A DNA stretch of 33,070 bases, taken from NCBI GenBank assembly GCA_016795185.1, contig JAEUIF010001059.1:1-33070 (forward strand), in the 5' to 3' direction. The notes under the pieces are model-generated. The model had not been told where the DNA came from. It made no database searches and saw nothing but the letters and a program-made list of their open reading frames with translations. This document shows positions 6,605 to 18,733 of the stretch, piece by piece. The DNA is from Planctomycetia bacterium (GTDB lineage Bacteria; Planctomycetota; Planctomycetia; Gemmatales; Gemmataceae). Positions within the stretch are counted from its first letter, which is position 1; each line of letters begins with the position of its first letter. Position numbers and translations under genes: made by a program.

Positions 6605-6950
6605 ACGCCGCGCCGAATCGGCACGATGCATGCGCCCGACGCATCCGGCAGGCTCGTTCTAGCCGGCATGGCCGTAGTCTTGGTTGCCGACGCTGGTTGT
6701 AGGCAGCGGATTGCCTACGCGAAAGCCGCTGATCCGTTTGACTGCTGCCGCGCGTCGGCTAGAGTTCCACTGCGAGAGCATGTGGCTCTGGGCGCCCTAC
6801 GCCCTGGGAGCGCATGTCATCGCTATTTCGGTTCCGCCCGGTGCTGGAGCGGCCCGCAGGGGTCTGGGCAGATTTAGCCAACCCATCTGTGCCAGGCATC
6901 CGAGGGCGCCTCCAGCCCGGGCGAGCCTTGTCTTGCCATGCTCGCCAAAC
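6605..6950. other. Intergenic stretch without a recognisable gene
   Basis: This is a 346-nt gap between two convergent genes. Short open frames here show no family resemblance and no ribosome binding site. A small inverted repeat (GTAGGCA ... TGCCTAC) lies around 6700-6717. Nothing else was recognised. Confidence 0.6.
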
Positions 6951-6979
6951 AAAAACCCACGGACAGGCATCCGTGGGTT
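6951..6979 (-). terminator. Rho-independent terminator of the pilus/secretion-like operon
   Basis: A perfect 10-bp stem (6954-6963 with 6970-6979) and a 6-nt loop are followed on the minus strand by a T tract (AAAAA at 6951-6955 read in reverse). It lies 60 nt past the stop at 7039 and ends the operon running from 13250. Confidence 0.8.
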
Positions 6980-6991
6980 GGTTGCTTTTTG

Positions 6992-7015
6992 CCCCTCTCC
7001 CCTGGCGGGAGAGGG
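6992..7015. repeat. Single copy of the CCCCTNNCCCCTGGCGGGAGAGG repeat family
   Basis: These 24 nt match the start of the long inverted repeat at 10909-10946 with one mismatch. The motif is itself palindromic around CTCCCCTGGCGGGAG. It lies between the operon terminator and the stop codon of the last gene. Confidence 0.7.
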
Positions 7016-7038
7016 AAGCGGCCGGCATCGCCGTTGAT

Positions 7039-8841
7039 TTACTTCGGCTTGTTGAAGGGGTCCTTTATCGGCTTGTTGCCCGTCGCGGGCTTGCCAGGAT
7101 TCTTGCGGACTTCCTCGCGCCAGCGCTCCCATTCGGCCGCCCGCTCTTCGCGGTCCTTGTCGGCCATGTCTTGACGGCTGTTCTTGACGCGCAGCTTGCC
7201 GTCCGGCGTCATCACCAGCAGTTCCACATTGGCTGTCTCGGTCACGTCCTTGCTGGTCTTGTCCGGCAGACGGAACGTTTCCGAGATGCGCCCGCCCTGG
7301 AAATCGACCAGGAGGTCTTCCGTCTGGAAGCTGACGGGAATGCCCTTCACCTGCAACGGCTTGACCGGCCCCAGGCCGACCTTGGCCGGGCCGATGGGCA
7401 CCGCGAACGCGAAGCCTTCCTTGTTCGGGAACCAGATCGGCACTTCTACGTTCTCGTTGCGGCCGATGTACTCGCCGGGGCGCACCGGCACGTCGCCGAT
7501 CACCCACTCGCCAACCGGCACCACCGAACGGGCCTGATCCGGGTTCAGCGTGGTGTTTTCCATCCAGCGATGCACCTGCACCATCGGCAGGTCGCGAATG
7601 CTCGGATCGACGCGGACGCGCTGGGTGTACGTGGCCTTGTCCAGCTCGTGAGCGTAAACGTAGGTTTCCTCGGGCAGCGTGATCGTCGCTACCGTGTCCG
7701 ACCAGCCACTGACCAGTTCCTTCACGTCAGCCAGCGACGGATAGGCGACCTCCGCCTTCTTGCCGTAGTTGGGGTTCGCGAGCCGGACCTGGACGCGGTA
7801 CTCATAGGTAAAGCCGGGCTTGGCGGTCACGTCGATGAAGCGCACCAGGCAGAAGTCGGGCAGCACGATTTCCTTGTCATTCGTATTGCCGACTTGGTCC
7901 TTCGGTTCCGGGGCCTTCAGAGCGTTTTCATCGGGCCGAGGGATGTTGCTGAACAGGTCGGTGTCACCACTGAGCTTCCGCTGCAATGGCGTCAGTTCCA
8001 CGCTGACGGGCTTGTTGCCGATCTCGCGCAGCGTGCGATTGAGCTTCGGCAGCTTGGTATCCGGATAGCTGCCGCGCGCCAGGATCGGCCGCGACATCAC
8101 CATGCCGGGGAAGCTCAGCTTTTGCAGGTCCGCCGAATCGGGCTCGGTGCCGACGGCCGATTGCAACAGCGGGCGGTACTCTTTTTCCAGGTCCAGGTCG
8201 TGCCACTTCTCCTTTTCCGCGCCGCCCGGCGCGACCAGCGTGCGCCGCTGGACGTTGAAGCCGAGGAACTTGGGCAGGTTGTTTTCCTTGTCCTTGGCCA
8301 AATCCTTGATTTCCTTCTCGCGCAGCGCCTTGCGGAAGAGCTCCAGCTGGTCCTTGTAGGGGAAGCTGCCGGACACGATGACCAGCCGCTTGGGCGTGAT
8401 GGTCTCGGCCAACTTGGCGCCGGCGGGGATGCGGCCCATGTCGGCCCAGTCCAGCTTCCAATCTACCGTCGGCACCTTGGAATCCATGTCGGCGGCGACG
8501 CCGGGTTGCCCACCGGGGAACCAGGGGTTGCCCGCGCCTTGGCCGGGGATCTGAACCATGTTGCCGGTCATCGCGGCGTAGGCGGCGGCGCGCTGCTTCA
8601 TCCACTCCAGATAACGTTTCTGTTCGGGCGTCAGCTCCGGCCCCCGTTTCTCCGTGGGCAGCAGCACGCCGATGCGCGTCTCCTTGCCGGTGACGTTGAG
8701 CATCAAGCTGCGGACCTGCGCCCGCACCAGGGCCGGCTCGAATTCCACGGGCGTCAGGATCGACGGATTGACGCGCTTGTTGCCTTCCGCCGCGCCGCCG
8801 ATGAAGTTAGGGTTCTTTGTCAAGTATTGCTCGACTGGCAC
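7039..8841 (-). CDS. Conserved planctomycete-type protein, large C-terminal part of an interrupted gene
   Basis: This 600-residue open frame begins at a GTG (8839-8841) that has no ribosome binding site. It is in the same frame as the 78-residue gene upstream (8860-9096). Only the TAG at 8860-8862 and six sense codons separate them, so both are probably one gene of 685 codons plus stop. I do not recognise a named domain. The sequence is soluble-looking and lysine/proline-rich. One part (FIDVTAKPGFTYEYRVQVRLANP) resembles a fibronectin-type beta-sandwich strand pattern, and the C-terminus is charged. With the upstream N-terminal helix, this would be the extracytoplasmic part of a bitopic protein. 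Its position after PilM/PilN- and PilO-like genes suggests a role in the same envelope complex (inference). Confidence 0.75.
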   Translation of the reverse strand: MPVEQYLTKNPNFIGGAAEGNKRVNPSILTPVEFEPALVRAQVRSLMLNVTGKETRIGVLLPTEKRGPELTPEQKRYLEWMKQRAAAYAAMTGNMVQIPGQGAGNPWFPGGQPGVAADMDSKVPTVDWKLDWADMGRIPAGAKLAETITPKRLVIVSGSFPYKDQLELFRKALREKEIKDLAKDKENNLPKFLGFNVQRRTLVAPGGAEKEKWHDLDLEKEYRPLLQSAVGTEPDSADLQKLSFPGMVMSRPILARGSYPDTKLPKLNRTLREIGNKPVSVELTPLQRKLSGDTDLFSNIPRPDENALKAPEPKDQVGNTNDKEIVLPDFCLVRFIDVTAKPGFTYEYRVQVRLANPNYGKKAEVAYPSLADVKELVSGWSDTVATITLPEETYVYAHELDKATYTQRVRVDPSIRDLPMVQVHRWMENTTLNPDQARSVVPVGEWVIGDVPVRPGEYIGRNENVEVPIWFPNKEGFAFAVPIGPAKVGLGPVKPLQVKGIPVSFQTEDLLVDFQGGRISETFRLPDKTSKDVTETANVELLVMTPDGKLRVKNSRQDMADKDREERAAEWERWREEVRKNPGKPATGNKPIKDPFNKPK

Positions 8842-8859
8842 GGGGTCGAGGTCGTGATT

Positions 8860-9096
8860 CTAGACCAGCACATCCGGCAGCGGCACCAGCGGCGCGACGA
8901 GCTTGTTGTCGAGCTGATCGCGGATGTCGCGGTGGCGGTCCTTGATCTGCTTCTCGATGGCAGTCGCGCTCTTGTCCCACGGCACGCCCAGCGCGCCGAA
9001 AGCCATCGCGCCGATCATGACGACCAGCGCCAGGCCGAAGCCGAGCCGTTCACCCTTTTGCAGCAGGAACTGTTGGAAGCCGTTGTTCTTCGCCAT
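8860..9096 (-). CDS. N-terminal membrane-anchor fragment of the same gene
   Basis: This 78-residue frame starts at the ATG at 9094-9096, with GGAGGA about 9 nt upstream. Residues 17-38 form one transmembrane helix (LGFGLALVVMIGAMAFGALGV). A charged helical stretch (IEKQIKDRHRDIRDQLDNK) follows, and the frame ends at a TAG after PLPDVLV. The next codons continue in frame into the 600-residue protein downstream. The good start signal here and the lack of one downstream favour a single gene broken by a nonsense codon. CAG (Gln) to TAG is the simplest change, but this is inference. Otherwise it is a small membrane protein. It belongs to the operon that begins at 13250. Confidence 0.7.
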   Translation of the reverse strand: MAKNNGFQQFLLQKGERLGFGLALVVMIGAMAFGALGVPWDKSATAIEKQIKDRHRDIRDQLDNKLVAPLVPLPDVLV

Positions 9097-9178
9097 GCCA
9101 GAGTCCTCCGCGGGACCGTCGTGTTCGGGAAGGGGGCGCGAATCGAGTTAATCGACGAGTACCAGGGCCAGTCGGCCC

Positions 9179-9354
9179 GTAGGTCAGGCTTTCCAGCCTG
9201 ACGGCAGTGTCAGCGGCGCTTCCGTCATTCCGTGTAGGTCAGGCTTTCCAGCCTGACGGCAATACCCTCGATGTGCCGCAAGTCGCGGGCGCTGCCGTCA
9301 GGCTGGAAAGCCTGACCTACGTCGATTCCTGTCAGGCTGGAAAGCCTGACCTAC
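9179..9354. repeat. Cluster of four palindromic repeats (GTAGGTCAGGCTTTCCAGCC family)
   Basis: Copies lie at 9179-9206 and 9234-9261 in one orientation and at 9293-9320 and 9330-9354 in the other. Copies 2 and 3 are exact reverse complements over 28 nt. Each copy contains the palindrome TCAGGCTttcCAGCCTGA. The cluster fills most of the 281-nt gap between two genes of the minus-strand operon. The layout resembles REP/BIME-like extragenic palindromes. Confidence 0.85.
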
Positions 9355-9377: not shown

Positions 9378-10856
9378 TCAGCGTTTGTCTACAGTTTCCT
9401 GGGGCGGCTGATAGCGTTCGTACAACGAGGCGACGCAGTGGATGGTTAGCTCGACCAGGGCCGAGGAACCGGGCTCACCGCCGCCGCCCTTCGGTTCAGC
9501 GCCCACGACACGCGGTGCATCCGGATCGCGTTCGACCAGACTGCCGCGGAAGTGCTGCCAGCCCACCTGGGTGATCTGGAAGCGGAACCGCGAACTGGCC
9601 AGCGCCGCGAGCACCTCCGGAATATGGGCCTGATCGACGAGCGCCACCACCGCCAGCGGCACGCGACGCACATGGTCCGTGATGTCGGAATACCGTTCGC
9701 GGGCCAGACCGTTGTCGGTGATCGCCGTGTTCGGCCGGTCGGCGGCCCGGGTGCCATCGGGCGGCGGCGGTATCGCGGCCACGGCGGCGGTGCTGATCTT
9801 GTGCATCTTCAACTTGTCGAAGGTACGGTACGATTGTTCCCCGACCAGCACCTGGTCGATGCGTCGCACCGGCGTGTCGCGCAGTTCGTAGAGTTGCGTC
9901 AGGGACAGGATGTCGTCGGGCCGGTTGGCGAGGTCGAGCTGGAACTGTGCGATTGGCGCATCCTTGCCCGCCAGGATAGTGTCGGCCTCGACCGGCAGCA
10001 CCACCGGAGCGGCGTTGCCTTGGTGCAGTTGCACCTGGAAGAAAATCTTCCCCAGCATCTGGGGCTGCTCGGTAATGTTCTTGATGCGCCCCTGGAGGTA
10101 GTAGCGCGGGCCCATCTCGCCCAGCACCAGGTCGAGTTGCCAGTCGGCGTTCTGGAATTGCTTGCGGTACAGCTCGCCGGGCTTGCGCTCCGTGGGGCCG
10201 TCCACCTTCTTGTAGCGCGCGCAGATGTCGATGGCCTCGCGAAACGCCTTCATCGCCTCGCGCTGGACCCAAACATCTTCCTGGGCCAGCCAGACTTCCT
10301 CGGACGACGGCGGCGCTTGCTTCTTGGCCGACCAGTTGCCCACATGGTTGACGAAGACCTTCTTCCAGCCGCCCTTGAACTGCGTAAACTCGAAGTCGCG
10401 CGTCTGGTCCGGGCCGATCTTGACGTTCTTGAGCCTGAACAGATCGACCATCGCCTCGAACTGCGGGTGGTACATATCGGGGCGGATGTACTCGCTGCAC
10501 AGGTTCACGTCGATGGGGTCGCCGAACTTCAGACCGCCCAGCGCGGCTTGCAGCTTACCGGGCCAGGTGAACAGGTCCTTCTGCATTTCCCAGGACGATT
10601 TCCAGATTTCGTCCTGGCGCTTCTGGAGCGTCGCCTCGCGTTCGAGCAGCGCCTTCATGTCGAGGTCGCCGCGCGGGGGGTTGTTCCCAAAGTTGTCGAG
10701 CTTTTTCAGGTGCTCGTCGAGCTTGCGGCGGCCCTCTGCGGTGCGGCCGGCGGACACCGTCTTCAGCCAGATCATGGTGAAGAACATGACCGGCACGATG
10801 ACGCCGAAGAGAATCCAGAACTGGTTCTTCGCCAGTTTTTCCTTGTTGATGCTCAT
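9378..10856 (-). CDS. Membrane-anchored protein, possibly PilO/GspM-like
   Basis: This 492-residue protein has a short cytoplasmic N-terminus (MSINKEKLAKNQF), one transmembrane helix at about 13-32 (WILFGVIVPVMFFTMIWL), a helical charged stretch (about 35-95) and a long extracytoplasmic region. No named domain is certain. The region from about residue 395 (VRRVPLAVVALVDQAHIPEVLAAL ... FRFQITQVGWQHF) has the beta-alpha-beta feel of the small ferredoxin-like domain of PilO/GspM, and the architecture of anchor, coiled coil and periplasmic domain is the same. The gene follows the PilM-PilN fusion gene on the same strand. The assignment rests mainly on this context, and a family search could change it. 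A clear ribosome binding site was not seen; the gap upstream holds a long inverted repeat. Confidence 0.65.
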   Translation of the reverse strand: MSINKEKLAKNQFWILFGVIVPVMFFTMIWLKTVSAGRTAEGRRKLDEHLKKLDNFGNNPPRGDLDMKALLEREATLQKRQDEIWKSSWEMQKDLFTWPGKLQAALGGLKFGDPIDVNLCSEYIRPDMYHPQFEAMVDLFRLKNVKIGPDQTRDFEFTQFKGGWKKVFVNHVGNWSAKKQAPPSSEEVWLAQEDVWVQREAMKAFREAIDICARYKKVDGPTERKPGELYRKQFQNADWQLDLVLGEMGPRYYLQGRIKNITEQPQMLGKIFFQVQLHQGNAAPVVLPVEADTILAGKDAPIAQFQLDLANRPDDILSLTQLYELRDTPVRRIDQVLVGEQSYRTFDKLKMHKISTAAVAAIPPPPDGTRAADRPNTAITDNGLARERYSDITDHVRRVPLAVVALVDQAHIPEVLAALASSRFRFQITQVGWQHFRGSLVERDPDAPRVVGAEPKGGGGEPGSSALVELTIHCVASLYERYQPPQETVDKR

Positions 10857-11012: not shown

Positions 11013-13250
11013 TCACTGCTGGGCGACGGCCTTCAGGTCCTCGTCCGACGGCGTCGGCTCCTTCCAGATGAAGTAGACGACGAACTCGGTACGGACGCTG
11101 CGGCCGTCGCTCTTGGGCGGTTCCTTGGCACCAGGCCCGCCGCCGGGCAGTGCGTCGCGCTGGCGGAAGCCGACGTCAATGTTCGGCAGCGGACGCCAGC
11201 GGGTGCGGTCGCGGCCGACGATGATCGGCTGGTCGCCGCGGTTCGGCCCAAATTCCGGGACCACCACGTCGGCCTGGTTCGGATTGCGCGGCTTGTTGCC
11301 GGTGGCCAGTTCGTACAGCTCGCTGCGGTTAATCAACTCGAACGAACCCTCGACGTGGTTCTGCACCCACTTGTAGCGCAGCAGCACGACATGGCTGACC
11401 TTGCCGCTGATCGGGTCGATCGGCTTGGACGGATCGGGCTTGGGTTCCGTGCGCTGGCGGGTGGCCAGGTTTTCGATCAAGGTATCGACGATGAACTTGC
11501 GCTGGTCGCGGTGATTGGTGTAGCCGCGCAGCTCGACGATCCAGCCCGCGCCGGTGGGCGGCTTCTCCTGGTCGTCCTTGGGCATGCTGTCCAGGACCTT
11601 GTTGGTGTCCTTGAGGCGGTTGAAGTAGGCGGCCAGGTCGTCGCAGTAGAGGGCATTGCAAGATTCGAGGTTGATGAGCACCAAATCCTCATCATCCACG
11701 CTCTGCGTCTGCCCCTTGCTCACGGCTTGCTGCGCCAGAAAGCGGGCATAGGCCGCCTTGCCCTTTTCGCCATAGGCGGCCTTCTGCCGGTCCGTCAGGT
11801 TGCCGAGGTCGGGGCGCGGCAAGCACTCGTTGATGTGCTTGTTGAGCATCAGCCAGTTGACGCGCTCTTCCTGGCCCGCCACCACGCTGCGCACCAGCTT
11901 CTTGAGCTGATCGACTTCCTGGGCCTTGCTCTGGTAGGTTTTGTTGCCGTGCTCGGCCGATTCGATGGCTGGCTTGCCGAAGTTCTTCTGCGCGTCGCGG
12001 ATGACCTCGCTGGCGACGGCGTCGTGCGACAGGCGCTCGCCGAAGGCCAGCGCGCCGGCACCGACCAGCAGCAGGGCGGCGGCGGCGACAGCCCACGGCT
12101 TCTTGCTGCGCACCAGGCGCTCGACGCGAATCTCCTCGGGCAGCAGGTTGGTCCGCAACTTGGCGAGGCCCAGCCCTTGCAGGGCCAGCCCATAGACCAC
12201 GCCCATGCTCAGCGCGTTGTCGCTGAACAGCGGGGCAGCCGTGACGTTGGCCCCTTCCAGCCGCAGGAACTTGCCAAGCTTGCGCACGTCCATTTGCAGC
12301 TTTTCATTGAGGTACTTCTGCAAGCCGGGCAGCCGGAACGCCCCGCCCATGCCCACGAGGTACTGGATGTGCGCGTCGCGCTGGCTGTTGGTGAAAAACG
12401 ACAACGATTTCTGCACTTCATTGACGAACTCGTTCAGGTCGGCCCGCAGCGCCAGCAGGATGCGCTTCAGGTCGGGCGACTTGGTCGCGTTGCGCTTCAG
12501 GTGCTCGGCCTTGGCGAAGGTGTACTTGAACTCCTTTGTCAGGGCGCGGGTGAAGCGGTTGCCGCCGATGGGAATCGAGCGCTGCCAGATGACGCGGTTG
12601 CCGTCGGTGATGACCAGGTTCGAGGTTTCCACGCCGATGTCCAGCGCGACCACGCATTCCTTCTTCTTGCCCTCGCTTTCCGGGGCGGCAGTGGAAGTGG
12701 CGTCCTGCTTGAGCAGGTCGTAGGAGACGAAGTTGCACAGCGCCAGGGGCGCCATCTGCACCACGTCCACCTCGATGCCGATTTCCTGGAAGGGCTGCAA
12801 GGCGCGTTGCACGTTCTCGCGCTTGATGGCGAAGAGGCCAATCTCGGTTTCCATCGCGAAGCCGTCGGCCACCACGCCGGAACCGATCTTCTGGAAATCC
12901 CAGACGACTTCCTCCAGCGGGAACGGAATCTGCTGCTTGGCCTCGAACTTGACGATGTCGCTGATCTTCTTTTCCTCGACCGGCGGCAGCTTGACGAAGC
13001 GCGCCAGGCCGCTTTGCCCGGAGACGCACATGGCGACCTTGTCGCCCCGCAGCTGGTTCCGTTTCAGGAACTTCTCCAGCGCTTCGCGGGTCAAAAGGTC
13101 AGGGTCGGCGTCGGGCTGACTGAGGATTTTGGGATGCTCGACGAACTCGAAGGCGGTGGCCACGGCCACGCCGTTACGGTTTTCCAGGCGCAGCGCCTTG
13201 AGGGCGCACTGGCCGATTTCGATTCCCCACGCACCCGGTTGCGTTGGCAT
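11013..13250 (-). CDS. PilM-PilN fusion protein (GspL-like architecture), type IV pilus/type II secretion platform
   Basis: This is a 745-residue protein. Residues 5-360 are a PilM-type actin-like (SHS2/FtsA) domain: GIEIGQCALKALRL, VSGQSGLARFVKLP, VKFEAKQQIPFPLEEVVWDF, VALDIGVETSNLVI and LVGMGGAFRLPGL match PilM segments. Residues 367-373 read TNLLPEE, the motif by which PilN normally binds PilM. A transmembrane helix at about 386-403 follows, then a long extracytoplasmic part with a coiled region, a predicted PilN-like domain near GWIVELRGYTNHRDQRKFIV, and a basic tail. In other bacteria PilM and PilN are separate, whereas GspL joins the two. The start is the ATG at 13248-13250, with GGGGAGAG upstream. 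It is the first gene of an operon running to 7039. It probably couples a cytoplasmic ATPase to an envelope machine. Confidence 0.85.
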   Translation of the reverse strand: MPTQPGAWGIEIGQCALKALRLENRNGVAVATAFEFVEHPKILSQPDADPDLLTREALEKFLKRNQLRGDKVAMCVSGQSGLARFVKLPPVEEKKISDIVKFEAKQQIPFPLEEVVWDFQKIGSGVVADGFAMETEIGLFAIKRENVQRALQPFQEIGIEVDVVQMAPLALCNFVSYDLLKQDATSTAAPESEGKKKECVVALDIGVETSNLVITDGNRVIWQRSIPIGGNRFTRALTKEFKYTFAKAEHLKRNATKSPDLKRILLALRADLNEFVNEVQKSLSFFTNSQRDAHIQYLVGMGGAFRLPGLQKYLNEKLQMDVRKLGKFLRLEGANVTAAPLFSDNALSMGVVYGLALQGLGLAKLRTNLLPEEIRVERLVRSKKPWAVAAAALLLVGAGALAFGERLSHDAVASEVIRDAQKNFGKPAIESAEHGNKTYQSKAQEVDQLKKLVRSVVAGQEERVNWLMLNKHINECLPRPDLGNLTDRQKAAYGEKGKAAYARFLAQQAVSKGQTQSVDDEDLVLINLESCNALYCDDLAAYFNRLKDTNKVLDSMPKDDQEKPPTGAGWIVELRGYTNHRDQRKFIVDTLIENLATRQRTEPKPDPSKPIDPISGKVSHVVLLRYKWVQNHVEGSFELINRSELYELATGNKPRNPNQADVVVPEFGPNRGDQPIIVGRDRTRWRPLPNIDVGFRQRDALPGGGPGAKEPPKSDGRSVRTEFVVYFIWKEPTPSDEDLKAVAQQ

Positions 13251-13595: not shown

Positions 13596-14507
13596 TCAGG
13601 GATTGAGGATTTCCTTGGCCCCGCGCGCCAACAAGTCTGCCGCCAGTCGTTTCCCCAGGTCTTCCGCGTCGGCCAGCGGGCCGACGGTTTGGCCCGCCAC
13701 GCGCTGCGCTCCATCGGGCGACAACACCGCGCCCCGCAGCGTCAGTACATTCGTGGCAACCGTCGTGGCCGCGCCAATCGGCACCAGGCACCCACCCCCC
13801 AGCGCGAACAGCATGGCCCGTTCCGCGAGGATGGCCTGGTGCGTGGCCGCGTGGTTGATCCCGGCCAGTAGCTCAAAGGTCGCCGCGTCGTCCTCCCGGC
13901 ATTCCAGGCCCAGCGCCCCCTGACCGACAGCCGGCAACATCCAGGCGGGATCGAGGACTTCCGTGACGGCGTCGGCCAGGCCGAGCCGCACCAAGCCCGC
14001 TTCCGCCAGGATCAGACCGTCGAGGTCGAAGTCCTTCAGCTTCTGCAAGCGGGTTTCCACGTTGCCACGGATGTCTTGCAATCGCAGGTCGGGCCGGCGG
14101 TGCAGCACCTGCGACCGACGGCGCAGACTGCCCGTGGCCAGGCGGGCGCCTGGTGGTAATACGTCGAATCGCGCAAGCTTGTCCGACATAAAAACATCGC
14201 CGTGCGGACCGCGCGGCGGCACGGCCGCGAGGCGCAGGCCCGGCACCGGCAGCGTGGGCAGGTCCTTCAGACTGTGGACCGCGACATCGACCGTGCCGTC
14301 CAGCAGCGCCCGCTGGATTTCCTTGGTGAACAGGCCGATGCCGCCGATCTGCGCCAGCGGCCGGTCGCGCACTTGATCGCCGACGGTCTGTATTTCCACC
14401 AACTCCACGGGCCGCGCGCCCGCCAGCGGACGCAGTGCGTCGGCGACGTAGTGGGCTTGCCAGAGCGCCAGGCGGCTGCCGCGCGTGCCAATGCGGATGG
14501 GTGCCAT
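13596..14507 (-). CDS. hemC: Hydroxymethylbilane synthase (porphobilinogen deaminase)
   Basis: This 303-residue cytoplasmic enzyme of tetrapyrrole (heme) synthesis joins four porphobilinogens into hydroxymethylbilane. The sequence shows IRIGTRGSRLALWQA at the N-terminus, VHSLKDLPT, a GDVFMSD segment that keeps the catalytic Asp, TGSLRRRSQ, RGNVETRLQKL, LPAVGQGALGLECR, and GGGCLVPIGA with the cysteine that holds the dipyrromethane cofactor. Length is normal for the family (about 300-320). The start is the ATG at 14505-14507, with a GGGG run upstream. The gene is divergent from the vWA protein gene with a 78-nt gap that must hold both promoters. No other heme gene lies in the window. Confidence 0.97.
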   Translation of the reverse strand: MAPIRIGTRGSRLALWQAHYVADALRPLAGARPVELVEIQTVGDQVRDRPLAQIGGIGLFTKEIQRALLDGTVDVAVHSLKDLPTLPVPGLRLAAVPPRGPHGDVFMSDKLARFDVLPPGARLATGSLRRRSQVLHRRPDLRLQDIRGNVETRLQKLKDFDLDGLILAEAGLVRLGLADAVTEVLDPAWMLPAVGQGALGLECREDDAATFELLAGINHAATHQAILAERAMLFALGGGCLVPIGAATTVATNVLTLRGAVLSPDGAQRVAGQTVGPLADAEDLGKRLAADLLARGAKEILNP

Positions 14508-14585
14508 GTCAACCCCGTGCTTGAACCTCGTGCGGCGATGGATTACGATTTATGCCTCTGGGGAAGAGCTACAAGAGGAGTCCGC

Positions 14586-15893
14586 ATGCGCTTCCTGCCC
14601 TGGCTGTCCGGTCTGGCGTGCTTGCTGGCCGCCCCGTGCCTCGCCGCGCAGAAGCCCGCCGACCTGGCGCGCGCCCGGCCCGTCCTCGAACGCCAGCTGC
14701 GCGACCCGTCCGCCGGCAACCGTCAAGACGCCCTCGACGAACTCGGCAAGTACCGCTTCCCCGAAGCGGCCCAGCTGGCACTGCCCTTGACCGCCGATCC
14801 CGACCCGCGTGTCCGCCTGACCGCGTTTCGCACCCTGGCCCACTTGCAAGAAGAACCAGCGGTGCGCGCCGCCATGCTCAAAACATTGCAAGCGGGCATC
14901 AGCGAGCAAACCCGGCCGCTGCTCGTGGCCGTGCTGGGCGGCACCGCCGACGCGAAGACCCTGCTGCAATCCCTGAACAAATCCGCCAAGGGGCAGCCCG
15001 TCGTGCTGCTGCACCTGCTGACGATGGCCGAGGAAATCTCGACCTGGTCCGACCCAGCCGCGGTGCGCGTGCTGGAGCGCATGACCCTGCTCGATGCCTT
15101 TCCACAGACTTTGGGCCTGCGCCGCGCCGTCGTCAAGGGGTTGCTCTACATCCGTCTGAACGAAGCGGTCCCGGTGCTCATCGACTTGCTCGGCAAACTG
15201 GACGGTGAGCTGGCATTCCAGATCAACGACCACCTGGACAAGATCAGCGGCGAGAGCTTTGCCTTCGACGCCGAATCGGCACGCAAGTGGTGGCAAGCCA
15301 ACCGCGAAGGCTACCGCTATCCCTCGCCCACGGCGCTGCCCGCGCCGCGTGTGCCGCGCGTCGAAGTGGACGGGGCCAGCTACTACGGCATGCAGATCCG
15401 GGCGCGGCACATGATCTTCGTCATGGACATCTCCGGCAGCATGGCGGGCGCGCGCTTGCAGCATGCCAAGAAGGAGCTGGTCCAGGCCATTCAGAAGTTG
15501 CCGTCGAAGTCGCAGTTCAACCTGGTCTTCTTCAACAACAAGCTGCACGTCTGGAGCCCGAAGCTGGTGGAAGCCACGCCCGAGGCCAAGAAGCAGGCGG
15601 TCTACCTGATCGAAAACCTGGCGGCGGGCGGCAACACCCATACCTACGACGCGCTCCGGGTCGCCCTGGACTTGAAAGTCGAGCACATCTACCTGCTGAC
15701 CGACGGCCAGCCCACCGGCGGCGCGATTGTCCAGACCGACACCATCCTGGCGACGATTCGCCCGCAGAATCGCCTGCCAGGCATCGCGATTTCGACGATT
15801 GGTCTGGCTCCCGGTCCAGACTCCGGCCCATTCAGCAAGTTTCTTCAGTCGCTGGCGGACCAGAACCACGGACAGTATCGCAAGGTGGAATAG
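14586..15893 (+). CDS. Secreted protein with helical repeats and a von Willebrand factor A domain
   Basis: This is a 435-residue protein. Residues 1-21 are a signal peptide (MRFLPWLSGLACLLAAPCLA). Residues 25-250 look like HEAT-type helical repeats, for example ALPLTADPDPRVRLTAFRTL and AVPVLIDLLGKLDG. Residues 276-435 form a vWA domain with a complete-looking MIDAS metal site: DISGS at 281-285, GGNTHTYDAL for the Thr and LLTDGQPT for the Asp. vWA domains bind proteins through a divalent metal ion, and the HEAT part is another protein-binding scaffold. The likely site is the periplasm or cell surface. The start ATG has AAGAGGAG 5 nt upstream. The gene converges with the hybrid kinase gene, with only 18 nt between stop codons and no terminator seen. 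Confidence 0.85.
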   Translation: MRFLPWLSGLACLLAAPCLAAQKPADLARARPVLERQLRDPSAGNRQDALDELGKYRFPEAAQLALPLTADPDPRVRLTAFRTLAHLQEEPAVRAAMLKTLQAGISEQTRPLLVAVLGGTADAKTLLQSLNKSAKGQPVVLLHLLTMAEEISTWSDPAAVRVLERMTLLDAFPQTLGLRRAVVKGLLYIRLNEAVPVLIDLLGKLDGELAFQINDHLDKISGESFAFDAESARKWWQANREGYRYPSPTALPAPRVPRVEVDGASYYGMQIRARHMIFVMDISGSMAGARLQHAKKELVQAIQKLPSKSQFNLVFFNNKLHVWSPKLVEATPEAKKQAVYLIENLAAGGNTHTYDALRVALDLKVEHIYLLTDGQPTGGAIVQTDTILATIRPQNRLPGIAISTIGLAPGPDSGPFSKFLQSLADQNHGQYRKVE

Positions 15894-15911: not shown

Positions 15912-18347
15912 CTACGCACGGCCAGGCGCCGGTTCATCGAGCACCTGGCGGATCTTGCGTGCCAGGCTCAGCGGCGTGAACGGTTTCTGGATGAACGACA
16001 CCTCCGCTTGCAGCAGGCCGTGGCGGACGACGGCGTCGTCGGTGTAGCCGCTCATGAACAACACCTTGACGTGCGGGAAGCGCGGCCTGAGCGCCTGCAC
16101 CAGCTCGGGACCGCTCAGCCCCGGCATCACCACGTCCGACAGAATCAAATCGAGCGGACCGCGGTGCGCCTCGGCGACCTTCAAGGCGGCCTTGCCGTTC
16201 TCGGCGGTCAGCACCGTGTAGCCGTGCATTTGTAAGCTCAGCAGCGCCATGCCGCGCACCGCCTCCTCGTCCTCGACCATGAGGATCGTCTCCGCGCCGC
16301 GCGCCGCCAGGCCCTGTTTGGAGTCGCCGCTCTTCTTGATCGGTTCGTCGACCGCGGGGAAATAAACCTTGAACGTCGTACCTCGCCCCGGCTCGCTGTA
16401 GACGTGGATGCAGCCGCCGCTCTGCTGGACGATGCCGAAGACCATGGCCAGGCCCAGGCCGGTGCCCTTGCCCACCTCCTTGGTGGTGAAGAAGGGCTCG
16501 AAGACGCGCGCCAGCACTTCGGGTGCCATGCCGCAGCCCGTATCGGTCATCGCCAGCATGACGTGCTGCCCTGCCTTGCAATCCGGGTGCGTGCGGACGT
16601 AGTCGTCGCTCAGCAACACATTGGAGGTTTCGATGGTCAGCTTGCCGCCTTTGGGCATGGCGTCGCGGGCGTTGACGGCCAGGTTCATCAGCACCTGGTC
16701 AAGCTGGGTGGGATCGACCTTCACCCGACTGAGCCTGGGGTCGAGGACCGTGGCGAACAGAATGTCCTCGCCGATCAAGCGACGCAGCAGCTTGCTGGTT
16801 TCAGCGACGACGGCATTGACGTCCAGCACCTGCGGCTGCAACATCGTCTGGCGGCTGAAGCCAAGCAGCTGGCGAGTGAGGGCCGCCGCCCGCGCGCCGG
16901 CTTCGCTGATGGCCTTGACGGACTCGCGCATCCGGTCGCCCAGATTGGGCAGGCCGAGCAAGACCTCACTGTAGCCGGAGATGATGGTCAGCAGGTTGTT
17001 GAAGTCGTGCGCGACGCCGCCCGCCAGCCGGCCGACGGCCTCCATCTTCTGCGCCTGGCGCAGCTGATCCTCCAAACGACGGCGCTCGGTGACGTCGTTG
17101 ACCACCCCCACGAAATAGGCCAGCTTCCCGCGTTCGTCGTGGACGGGATTGATGGACAGGCCGTTCCAGAAAGGCGTGCCGTCCTTGCGGTAATTGAGCA
17201 ATTCGACGGAGCAGCCGCGCCCGGCGGCGATGGCTTCGCGGATCCGCCGCACGACATCCCGATCCGTTTCCGGGCCCTGGAGGAAGCGACAGTTCTTGCC
17301 CAGCACCTCGGCAGTGCGGTAGCCGGTGATGCGCTCAAAGCCGGCGCTGGCGTAAACGACTGGCTGCCCGGGCTGGTTGGGGTCGGCGATGAGTATCCCC
17401 TGCGACACTGCCTGAATGGCCCGGTCGCGCATCCGTAGCGCTTCCTCGATGCGCCGCCGCTCGGTGACGTCCCGCGCCTGGACGATGCACGCCGGGCGGC
17501 CCGCGAACTCCAGGGCAAAGGCGGTGATCTCCATTTCGAGGATTTCGCCGTACTTGGTGCGATGCCGCCAAACTCCCCGGTCCTCGCGCTGCGTGCCGGA
17601 TTTCGCCAGCATTTCCAGTAGCGCCGGCACGTCCTCGGAGGGACGGATGTCCTTCAGGGTCATGCCGAGAAACTCGTCGCGGCTGTAGCCGTATTTCGCC
17701 ACGGCGGCGTCGTTGACCGCCAGGTAGCGGAGCGACTCGCGGTCGTAGACGAAGAGCGGATCGGCAATGGCGTGGAACAGGCCACGATAGCGTTCCTCGC
17801 TGGCGCGCAGTTCGCCTTCCATGCGCCTGCACTCGGCGATCTCGGCCTGCAAGTCGCGGTTGGCCTGCTCCAGCTGCTGGGCCCGCTTCTCCAGCTTGCG
17901 GACCAGGGTCTCGCTGTACTCCTTGAGGATGGCGGCTTCCTCCATTTGCGGCGCGCGGGTCGGTTGCCCGGCGGGCGCGCTGCGCGACATCACGTCCTGA
18001 ACACAAGCCATGAAGGCTTCCGGCTCGGCGGGCTTGATCAGGAAGGCATCCGCGCCCAGGTCGAGGGCCAGGCGCTCATCGCGCGGGTCGGTGTAGGTCG
18101 CGGTGTAGACCATGAAGGGAATGGACTTGAGCTGCGGGTCGGCCTTCCACTGGCGCAGCAGGGTGTAGCCGTCCATCACGGGCATCAGCAAGTCCGAAAC
18201 GATGAGTTCGGGAGGCGTCTGCCGGGCCAGGGTCAGCGCATCGGCGCCGTGGCGGGCCTCGTCCACGGTCCAGCCGTGACCGAGCAGCAGGGCGCGCAGC
18301 AGGTACAGGTTGTTCTCGTTGTCGTCAACGATCAGCACGCGCGTCAT
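15912..18347 (-). CDS. LOV-domain hybrid histidine kinase (REC-PAS-LOV-HisKA-HATPase-REC)
   Basis: This is an 811-residue protein. Domains in order: receiver 1-120 (phospho-acceptor D52, K105); coiled coil about 140-180; PAS about 183-298; LOV-type PAS about 306-422; HisKA about 428-500 with H447 in VAHDFNN; HATPase about 545-665 with NLAVNARDAMP, DTGCGM and GKGTGLGLAM; second receiver about 687-805 with D738 and K788. The LOV part reads GKNCRFLQG (C353 as the flavin-adduct cysteine), then NYRKDGTPFWN and FVGVVNDVTE, which is close to consensus. LOV domains bind FMN and sense blue light or redox state. No membrane segment, so it is cytoplasmic. The start ATG overlaps the stop of the stand-alone receiver gene (ATGA), which suggests translational coupling. 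It probably forms a phosphorelay with its neighbours. Confidence 0.92.
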   Translation of the reverse strand: MTRVLIVDDNENNLYLLRALLLGHGWTVDEARHGADALTLARQTPPELIVSDLLMPVMDGYTLLRQWKADPQLKSIPFMVYTATYTDPRDERLALDLGADAFLIKPAEPEAFMACVQDVMSRSAPAGQPTRAPQMEEAAILKEYSETLVRKLEKRAQQLEQANRDLQAEIAECRRMEGELRASEERYRGLFHAIADPLFVYDRESLRYLAVNDAAVAKYGYSRDEFLGMTLKDIRPSEDVPALLEMLAKSGTQREDRGVWRHRTKYGEILEMEITAFALEFAGRPACIVQARDVTERRRIEEALRMRDRAIQAVSQGILIADPNQPGQPVVYASAGFERITGYRTAEVLGKNCRFLQGPETDRDVVRRIREAIAAGRGCSVELLNYRKDGTPFWNGLSINPVHDERGKLAYFVGVVNDVTERRRLEDQLRQAQKMEAVGRLAGGVAHDFNNLLTIISGYSEVLLGLPNLGDRMRESVKAISEAGARAAALTRQLLGFSRQTMLQPQVLDVNAVVAETSKLLRRLIGEDILFATVLDPRLSRVKVDPTQLDQVLMNLAVNARDAMPKGGKLTIETSNVLLSDDYVRTHPDCKAGQHVMLAMTDTGCGMAPEVLARVFEPFFTTKEVGKGTGLGLAMVFGIVQQSGGCIHVYSEPGRGTTFKVYFPAVDEPIKKSGDSKQGLAARGAETILMVEDEEAVRGMALLSLQMHGYTVLTAENGKAALKVAEAHRGPLDLILSDVVMPGLSGPELVQALRPRFPHVKVLFMSGYTDDAVVRHGLLQAEVSFIQKPFTPLSLARKIRQVLDEPAPGRA

Positions 18348-18733
18348 GGGGCAGCGTCCCTGGGGGAAGTTGGAAGGAAACGCTCGATTTCGGCGACGAA
18401 AGTCTCCGGGTTGATCGGTTTCTCGATGTAACCCTCCGCGCCGGCCGCCAGGCACTTTTCGCGGTCGCCGACCATGGCGTAGGACGTGACCGCCACGATC
18501 GGAATCGACCGCAGGCTGGGATCGCCCTTGATCGCGCGGGCGACGGCGTGGCCGTCCATGCCGGGCAACTGAATGTCGAGCAGTATCAGGTCGGGGCGCT
18601 CGCGCACCGCGATCTCCAGGCCCAGCGGCCCGGTCTCGGCCGGAATGATCGTATGGCCGCGCTGCTCCAGCAGGAACGTGGCCAGGTAGCGGTTCTGGGC
18701 GTTGTCCTCGATCAGTAGGATTTTCGCCTTCAT
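18344..18733 (-). CDS. Stand-alone response regulator receiver domain
   Basis: This 129-residue protein is one CheY-like receiver and nothing else. It shows KILLIEDNAQNR with the acidic pair, LILLDIQLPGMDG with the phospho-acceptor Asp (about 53), VAVTSYAM for the switch Thr/Ser, and IEKPIN with the conserved Lys. It lacks an output domain, so it probably shuttles phosphate or binds a partner protein. The start ATG (18731-18733) overlaps the stop codon of the large kinase, and its own stop overlaps the start of the LOV hybrid kinase, both as ATGA. This tight packing suggests that the three act in one relay. Confidence 0.93.
   Translation of the reverse strand: MKAKILLIEDNAQNRYLATFLLEQRGHTIIPAETGPLGLEIAVRERPDLILLDIQLPGMDGHAVARAIKGDPSLRSIPIVAVTSYAMVGDREKCLAAGAEGYIEKPINPETFVAEIERFLPTSPRDAAP

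Follow-up and report, generated by a model that had tools for sequence, protein, structure and literature searches.

A single in-frame TAG interrupts what is very probably one 685-codon gene near pilM in a planctomycete draft genome

The window analysed here, a stretch of 33,070 nucleotides from a Planctomycetia bacterium, is the whole of contig C223 in a draft assembly of 9.5 Mb in 1500 contigs. On its minus strand it carried a single reading frame of 685 codons (9096-7039) whose sole break was a TAG at 8862-8860, very probably one gene bearing a single nonsense base that arose by consensus error or by very recent mutation. The intact gene would encode a membrane-anchored protein of 685 aa within a PilM-type cluster of pilus or secretion genes, and in it an A to T change on the sense strand would have turned an ancestral AAG lysine codon into TAG at codon 79. 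Read literally, the DNA would yield only a 78-residue anchor, with the large domain lost. The TAG may stem from a mistake in the consensus of the draft metagenome, the somewhat likelier source, or from a nonsense mutation of very recent date in the sampled population. In practice the result is an annotation fix, giving one 685-aa gene instead of two, and as a finding it matters little.

The whole interrupted gene (7039-9096, minus strand) comprised 685 codons and a TAA, and encoded a Planctomycete protein, as yet uncharacterised, that has a hydrophobic helix at its N-terminus. Along the minus strand, an ATG at 9096 opened a piece of 78 codons (8863-9096) containing the hydrophobic helix and the beginning of a linker, followed by the TAG (8860-8862) and six sense codons (NHDLDP, 8859-8842). 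A GTG at 8841 then opened 600 codons (7042-8841) in the same frame as the 78-aa piece, ending at the TAA (7039). When re-derived from the frame, the coordinates and counts of the initial annotation (78 residues, TAG at 8860-8862, NHDLDP, 600 residues, 685 codons) proved correct. The ribosome binding site that it had placed upstream of the ATG was found as a Shine-Dalgarno (SD)-like GCGGAGGACTCTGGC (9097-9111, minus strand), identical in a sister from the same genus, and no SD was found at the GTG, again as it had reported. Profile searches with the interrupted protein gave no Pfam or NCBIfam family match and no match to a solved structure. AlphaFold, run on two sequences, predicted a helix at residues 5-36 in a low-confidence model (mean pLDDT 31), and given that score the model was left out of the fold search. 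In a codon-usage scan, the gene was among the clearest cases of coding sequence continuing seamlessly on either side of a stop.

The closest comparison came from the same-genus orthologue on JAGVLI010000331.1 (Planctomycetales bacterium SW_37 MAG), which shared the protein, its neighbours and the start site with its SD, but was intact: an unbroken 685-aa frame with AAG (Lys79) where the window has TAG. The two were identical at 595 of 686 positions, stop included (87%). A wider search of 99 genomes of relatives gave matches in 86, among which only the window's own genome had a TAG within the match; in two other genomes a TGA or TAA lay within alignments that were long and weak. The site sat in a variable linker between the membrane helix and the large domain, and an alignment across the site, a check that the initial annotation had suggested, placed a sense residue (mostly K, E or G) or a gap there in every homologue that reached it, and a stop in none. 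Unbroken homologues and a sense codon one base away, AAG in the sister, are what a nonsense change or consensus error within one gene would leave. The initial annotation had proposed a single substitution in one gene, whether recent or an assembly error, which agrees with these data; its suggestion that CAG (Gln) was the original codon does not, since the site is AAG (Lys) in the orthologue and is mostly occupied by Lys, Glu or Gly in other homologues. The ancestral codon was thus probably AAG and not CAG, although conservation at this position is not strict and the lysine is therefore deduced mainly from one sister.

Could the frame instead hold two genes, the first for a small anchor protein and the second, with GTG 8841 as its start, for a 600-aa protein? 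The in-frame GTG only six codons past the TAG would allow it, but neither this codon nor any near alternative start had an SD, and the counterpart of the GTG in the sister was a valine codon in the interior of a single frame. In relatives with a full N-terminus, one frame spanned both the helix and the large domain. Such homologues contradict a two-gene arrangement, which we regard as highly unlikely; judged from the sequence comparison, the 9096-7039 frame encodes one gene, not two.

Comparison with the sister gave a dN/dS of ~0.06 before the TAG and ~0.12 after it, and a dS of ~0.7 on either side. The downstream frame was open for 600 codons, as the initial annotation had noted, and comparison with the sister revealed no frameshift in the 606 codons after the TAG. 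By these measures, purifying selection acts on the downstream part, which shows no decay. After the TAG, substitutions fell 64/49/209 at codon positions 1/2/3 of the minus strand. This pattern bears on an overlapping plus-strand frame of 795 codons (6814-9201), in which the site reads as CTA (Leu), and which is open in the window with a matching open antisense frame in the sister. Were it the real gene, most substitutions, at minus-strand third positions, would lie at its own first positions, and the 64/49/209 pattern therefore excludes it as the coding strand. With homologues of the minus-strand protein found across the order and the class, a plus-strand gene is barely credible, and the 795-codon frame looks like a shadow frame produced by high-GC codon usage.

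Whether the TAG exists in the organism was weighed against the state of the rest of the genome. We scanned 135 of its own sequences (0.98 Mb) for broken genes with a codon-usage score that included frame competition, and found 22 stops with coding-like sequence on both sides. By inspection, most marked the border between adjacent genes, and in many of these, such as an AtpD-AtpC-like pair, an ATG came shortly after the stop. Within the 0.98 Mb, the probable true interruptions were the window gene, ClpC, a PAS-domain protein and an uncertain DUF927-like gene. The genome's main copy of ClpC (contig C661, also L148, 7825-7827) had an in-frame TAG at a conserved lysine (TLDEFR*YIEKDAALARRF), where the same-genus orthologue, 94% identical, has AAG, and the relatives whose motif was examined have a lysine codon too, AAG in most of them, or AAA; an error or mutation like that in the window gene is the probable origin of this break. 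The PAS-domain sensor protein (contig C459, L184, ~9053) had a TGA inside GHILT*SRGAEQIDGYT, which, judged from the motif, we presume to replace TGG (Trp). The DUF927-like gene (contig C202, L160, 17172, minus strand) contained a TAG in frame; further downstream its reading frame seems to shift as well, and the gene may be a decaying one from a mobile element. A paralogue on contig C998, considered as a second TAG case, was set aside when its one TAG turned out to be the normal terminal stop. From codon usage, ~65% of stops arising by one substitution are expected to be TAG and 8-15% to be AAG>TAG, and the three TAG and one TGA among the probable broken genes fit random single-base changes. 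Two of the four (the window gene and ClpC), both now in a CTAG context, were AAG>TAG; by rough estimate with four events this has a probability of ~7%, slightly above expectation but not striking.

A real nonsense mutation of very recent origin in the sampled population, by which only the 78-aa anchor would be made and the protein lost, is a realistic if less favoured explanation, to which we give roughly a third of our confidence. The TAG is, after all, present in the assembled sequence, and AAG>TAG is among the likelier one-step stops given the codon usage; yet the 606 downstream codons lack any further decay, and a core ClpC broken by the same kind of change is hard to take as a real loss. 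The broken ClpC suggests consensus errors, and we favour a consensus error because this core gene of the same bin is broken alike and the assembly is fragmented (1500 contigs, 9.5 Mb). Both the direction of change (AAG to TAG) and the preference for error over mutation are deductions of ours. Error is thus somewhat more likely than real mutation, and what is left for suppression is very small. Our literature searches returned nothing on stop codons produced by assembly errors in metagenome-assembled genomes. Isolated in-frame stops in pseudogenes have been discussed as a cause of false calls of codon reassignment (PMC8629427). The window gene resembles these in its lone stop, one base from a sense codon, and in that no suppressor tRNA was found; it differs in lacking any other decay. 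As a caution to users, nonsense positions occur at a rate of a few per megabase in this draft genome, and core genes such as ClpC are among those hit.

The initial annotation had also raised amber read-through or local recoding, in which some ribosomes would insert an amino acid at the TAG to give the full protein. An undecayed full-length frame and the same TAG-for-Lys change in ClpC speak for it, but programmed read-through would be expected to conserve the stop, and the site has a sense codon even within the genus and in all aligned homologues that reach it. A stimulating downstream structure is a common but not universal mark of such read-through, and the 90 nt 3' of the TAG were no more structured than shuffled sequences (z -0.27). 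TAG behaved as a normal terminator, ending 60 of 254 long stop-ended reading frames in the genome sample (about a quarter), a set that includes two window genes (14202-15893, 15912-18455), and another of the broken genes had TGA. RF1 was intact (prfA above cut-off, no internal stop), and none of 52 RF00005 hits, ARAGORN-missed ones included, was a tRNA with a CUA anticodon, an absence that is not absolute in a genome ~94% complete. Weak tRNAs that ARAGORN had missed were inspected manually for a CUA anticodon: that on contig C455 reads as Asp(GTC), and that on C735 had no CUA loop. The genome also had packed arrays of mostly low-scoring tRNA genes (L148 9568-10467, L153 3730-4039, L154 3084-3400 and L155 2772-2930), which duplicate part of the normal tRNA set and are perhaps a mobile-element array or a contaminant. 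No in-domain stops occurred in 51 ABC-transporter domains genome-wide, nor among the Pkinase domains listed from 154 matches genome-wide. General TAG recoding is rejected, since TAG still terminates genes, RF1 is intact, no CUA tRNA was found and the domains surveyed are stop-free. Read-through or local recoding at this site is highly improbable, and a narrower version, low-level natural amber suppression (perhaps with Lys) at rare TAGs such as those of the window gene and ClpC, with TAG an ordinary stop elsewhere, is more improbable still. If read-through were true, a planctomycete would here show natural amber suppression; the evidence stands against it, and literature searches on Planctomycete read-through found nothing. 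Some phages reassign UAG to Gln. Among bacteria, reassignment of UGA to Trp or Gly is known (PMC8629427). The present genome shares stops inside reading frames with such systems, but few genes are affected, the type of stop is mixed, RF1 is kept and TAG ends many genes.

The interrupted gene, read as one 685-codon unit, was the third in a run that began with a type IV pilus assembly protein PilM (11013-13250, minus strand; PF11104, 9e-38; TIGR01175 above cut-off), followed by a 492-aa protein with no family match above cut-off (9378-10856, minus strand). The same three-gene order was present in the same-genus sister, and the 492-aa gene and the 685-codon gene were adjacent in several more distant relatives. 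The neighbour at 11013-13250, through its TIGR01175 match and an Amuc_1101 family match below cut-off, recalls type IV pilus PilM and the PilM-like cluster of Akkermansia Amuc_1101, whereas the interrupted protein, with no Pfam, NCBIfam or solved-structure match, sets this locus apart. The intergenic region that separates the 685-codon gene from the 492-aa gene upstream contained four copies, two in each direction, of a 24-base repeat, GTAGGTCAGGCTTTCCAGCCTGAC (window 9179-9354). The relatives' loci lacked this repeat, and 19 copies were counted across 0.98 Mb of the genome.
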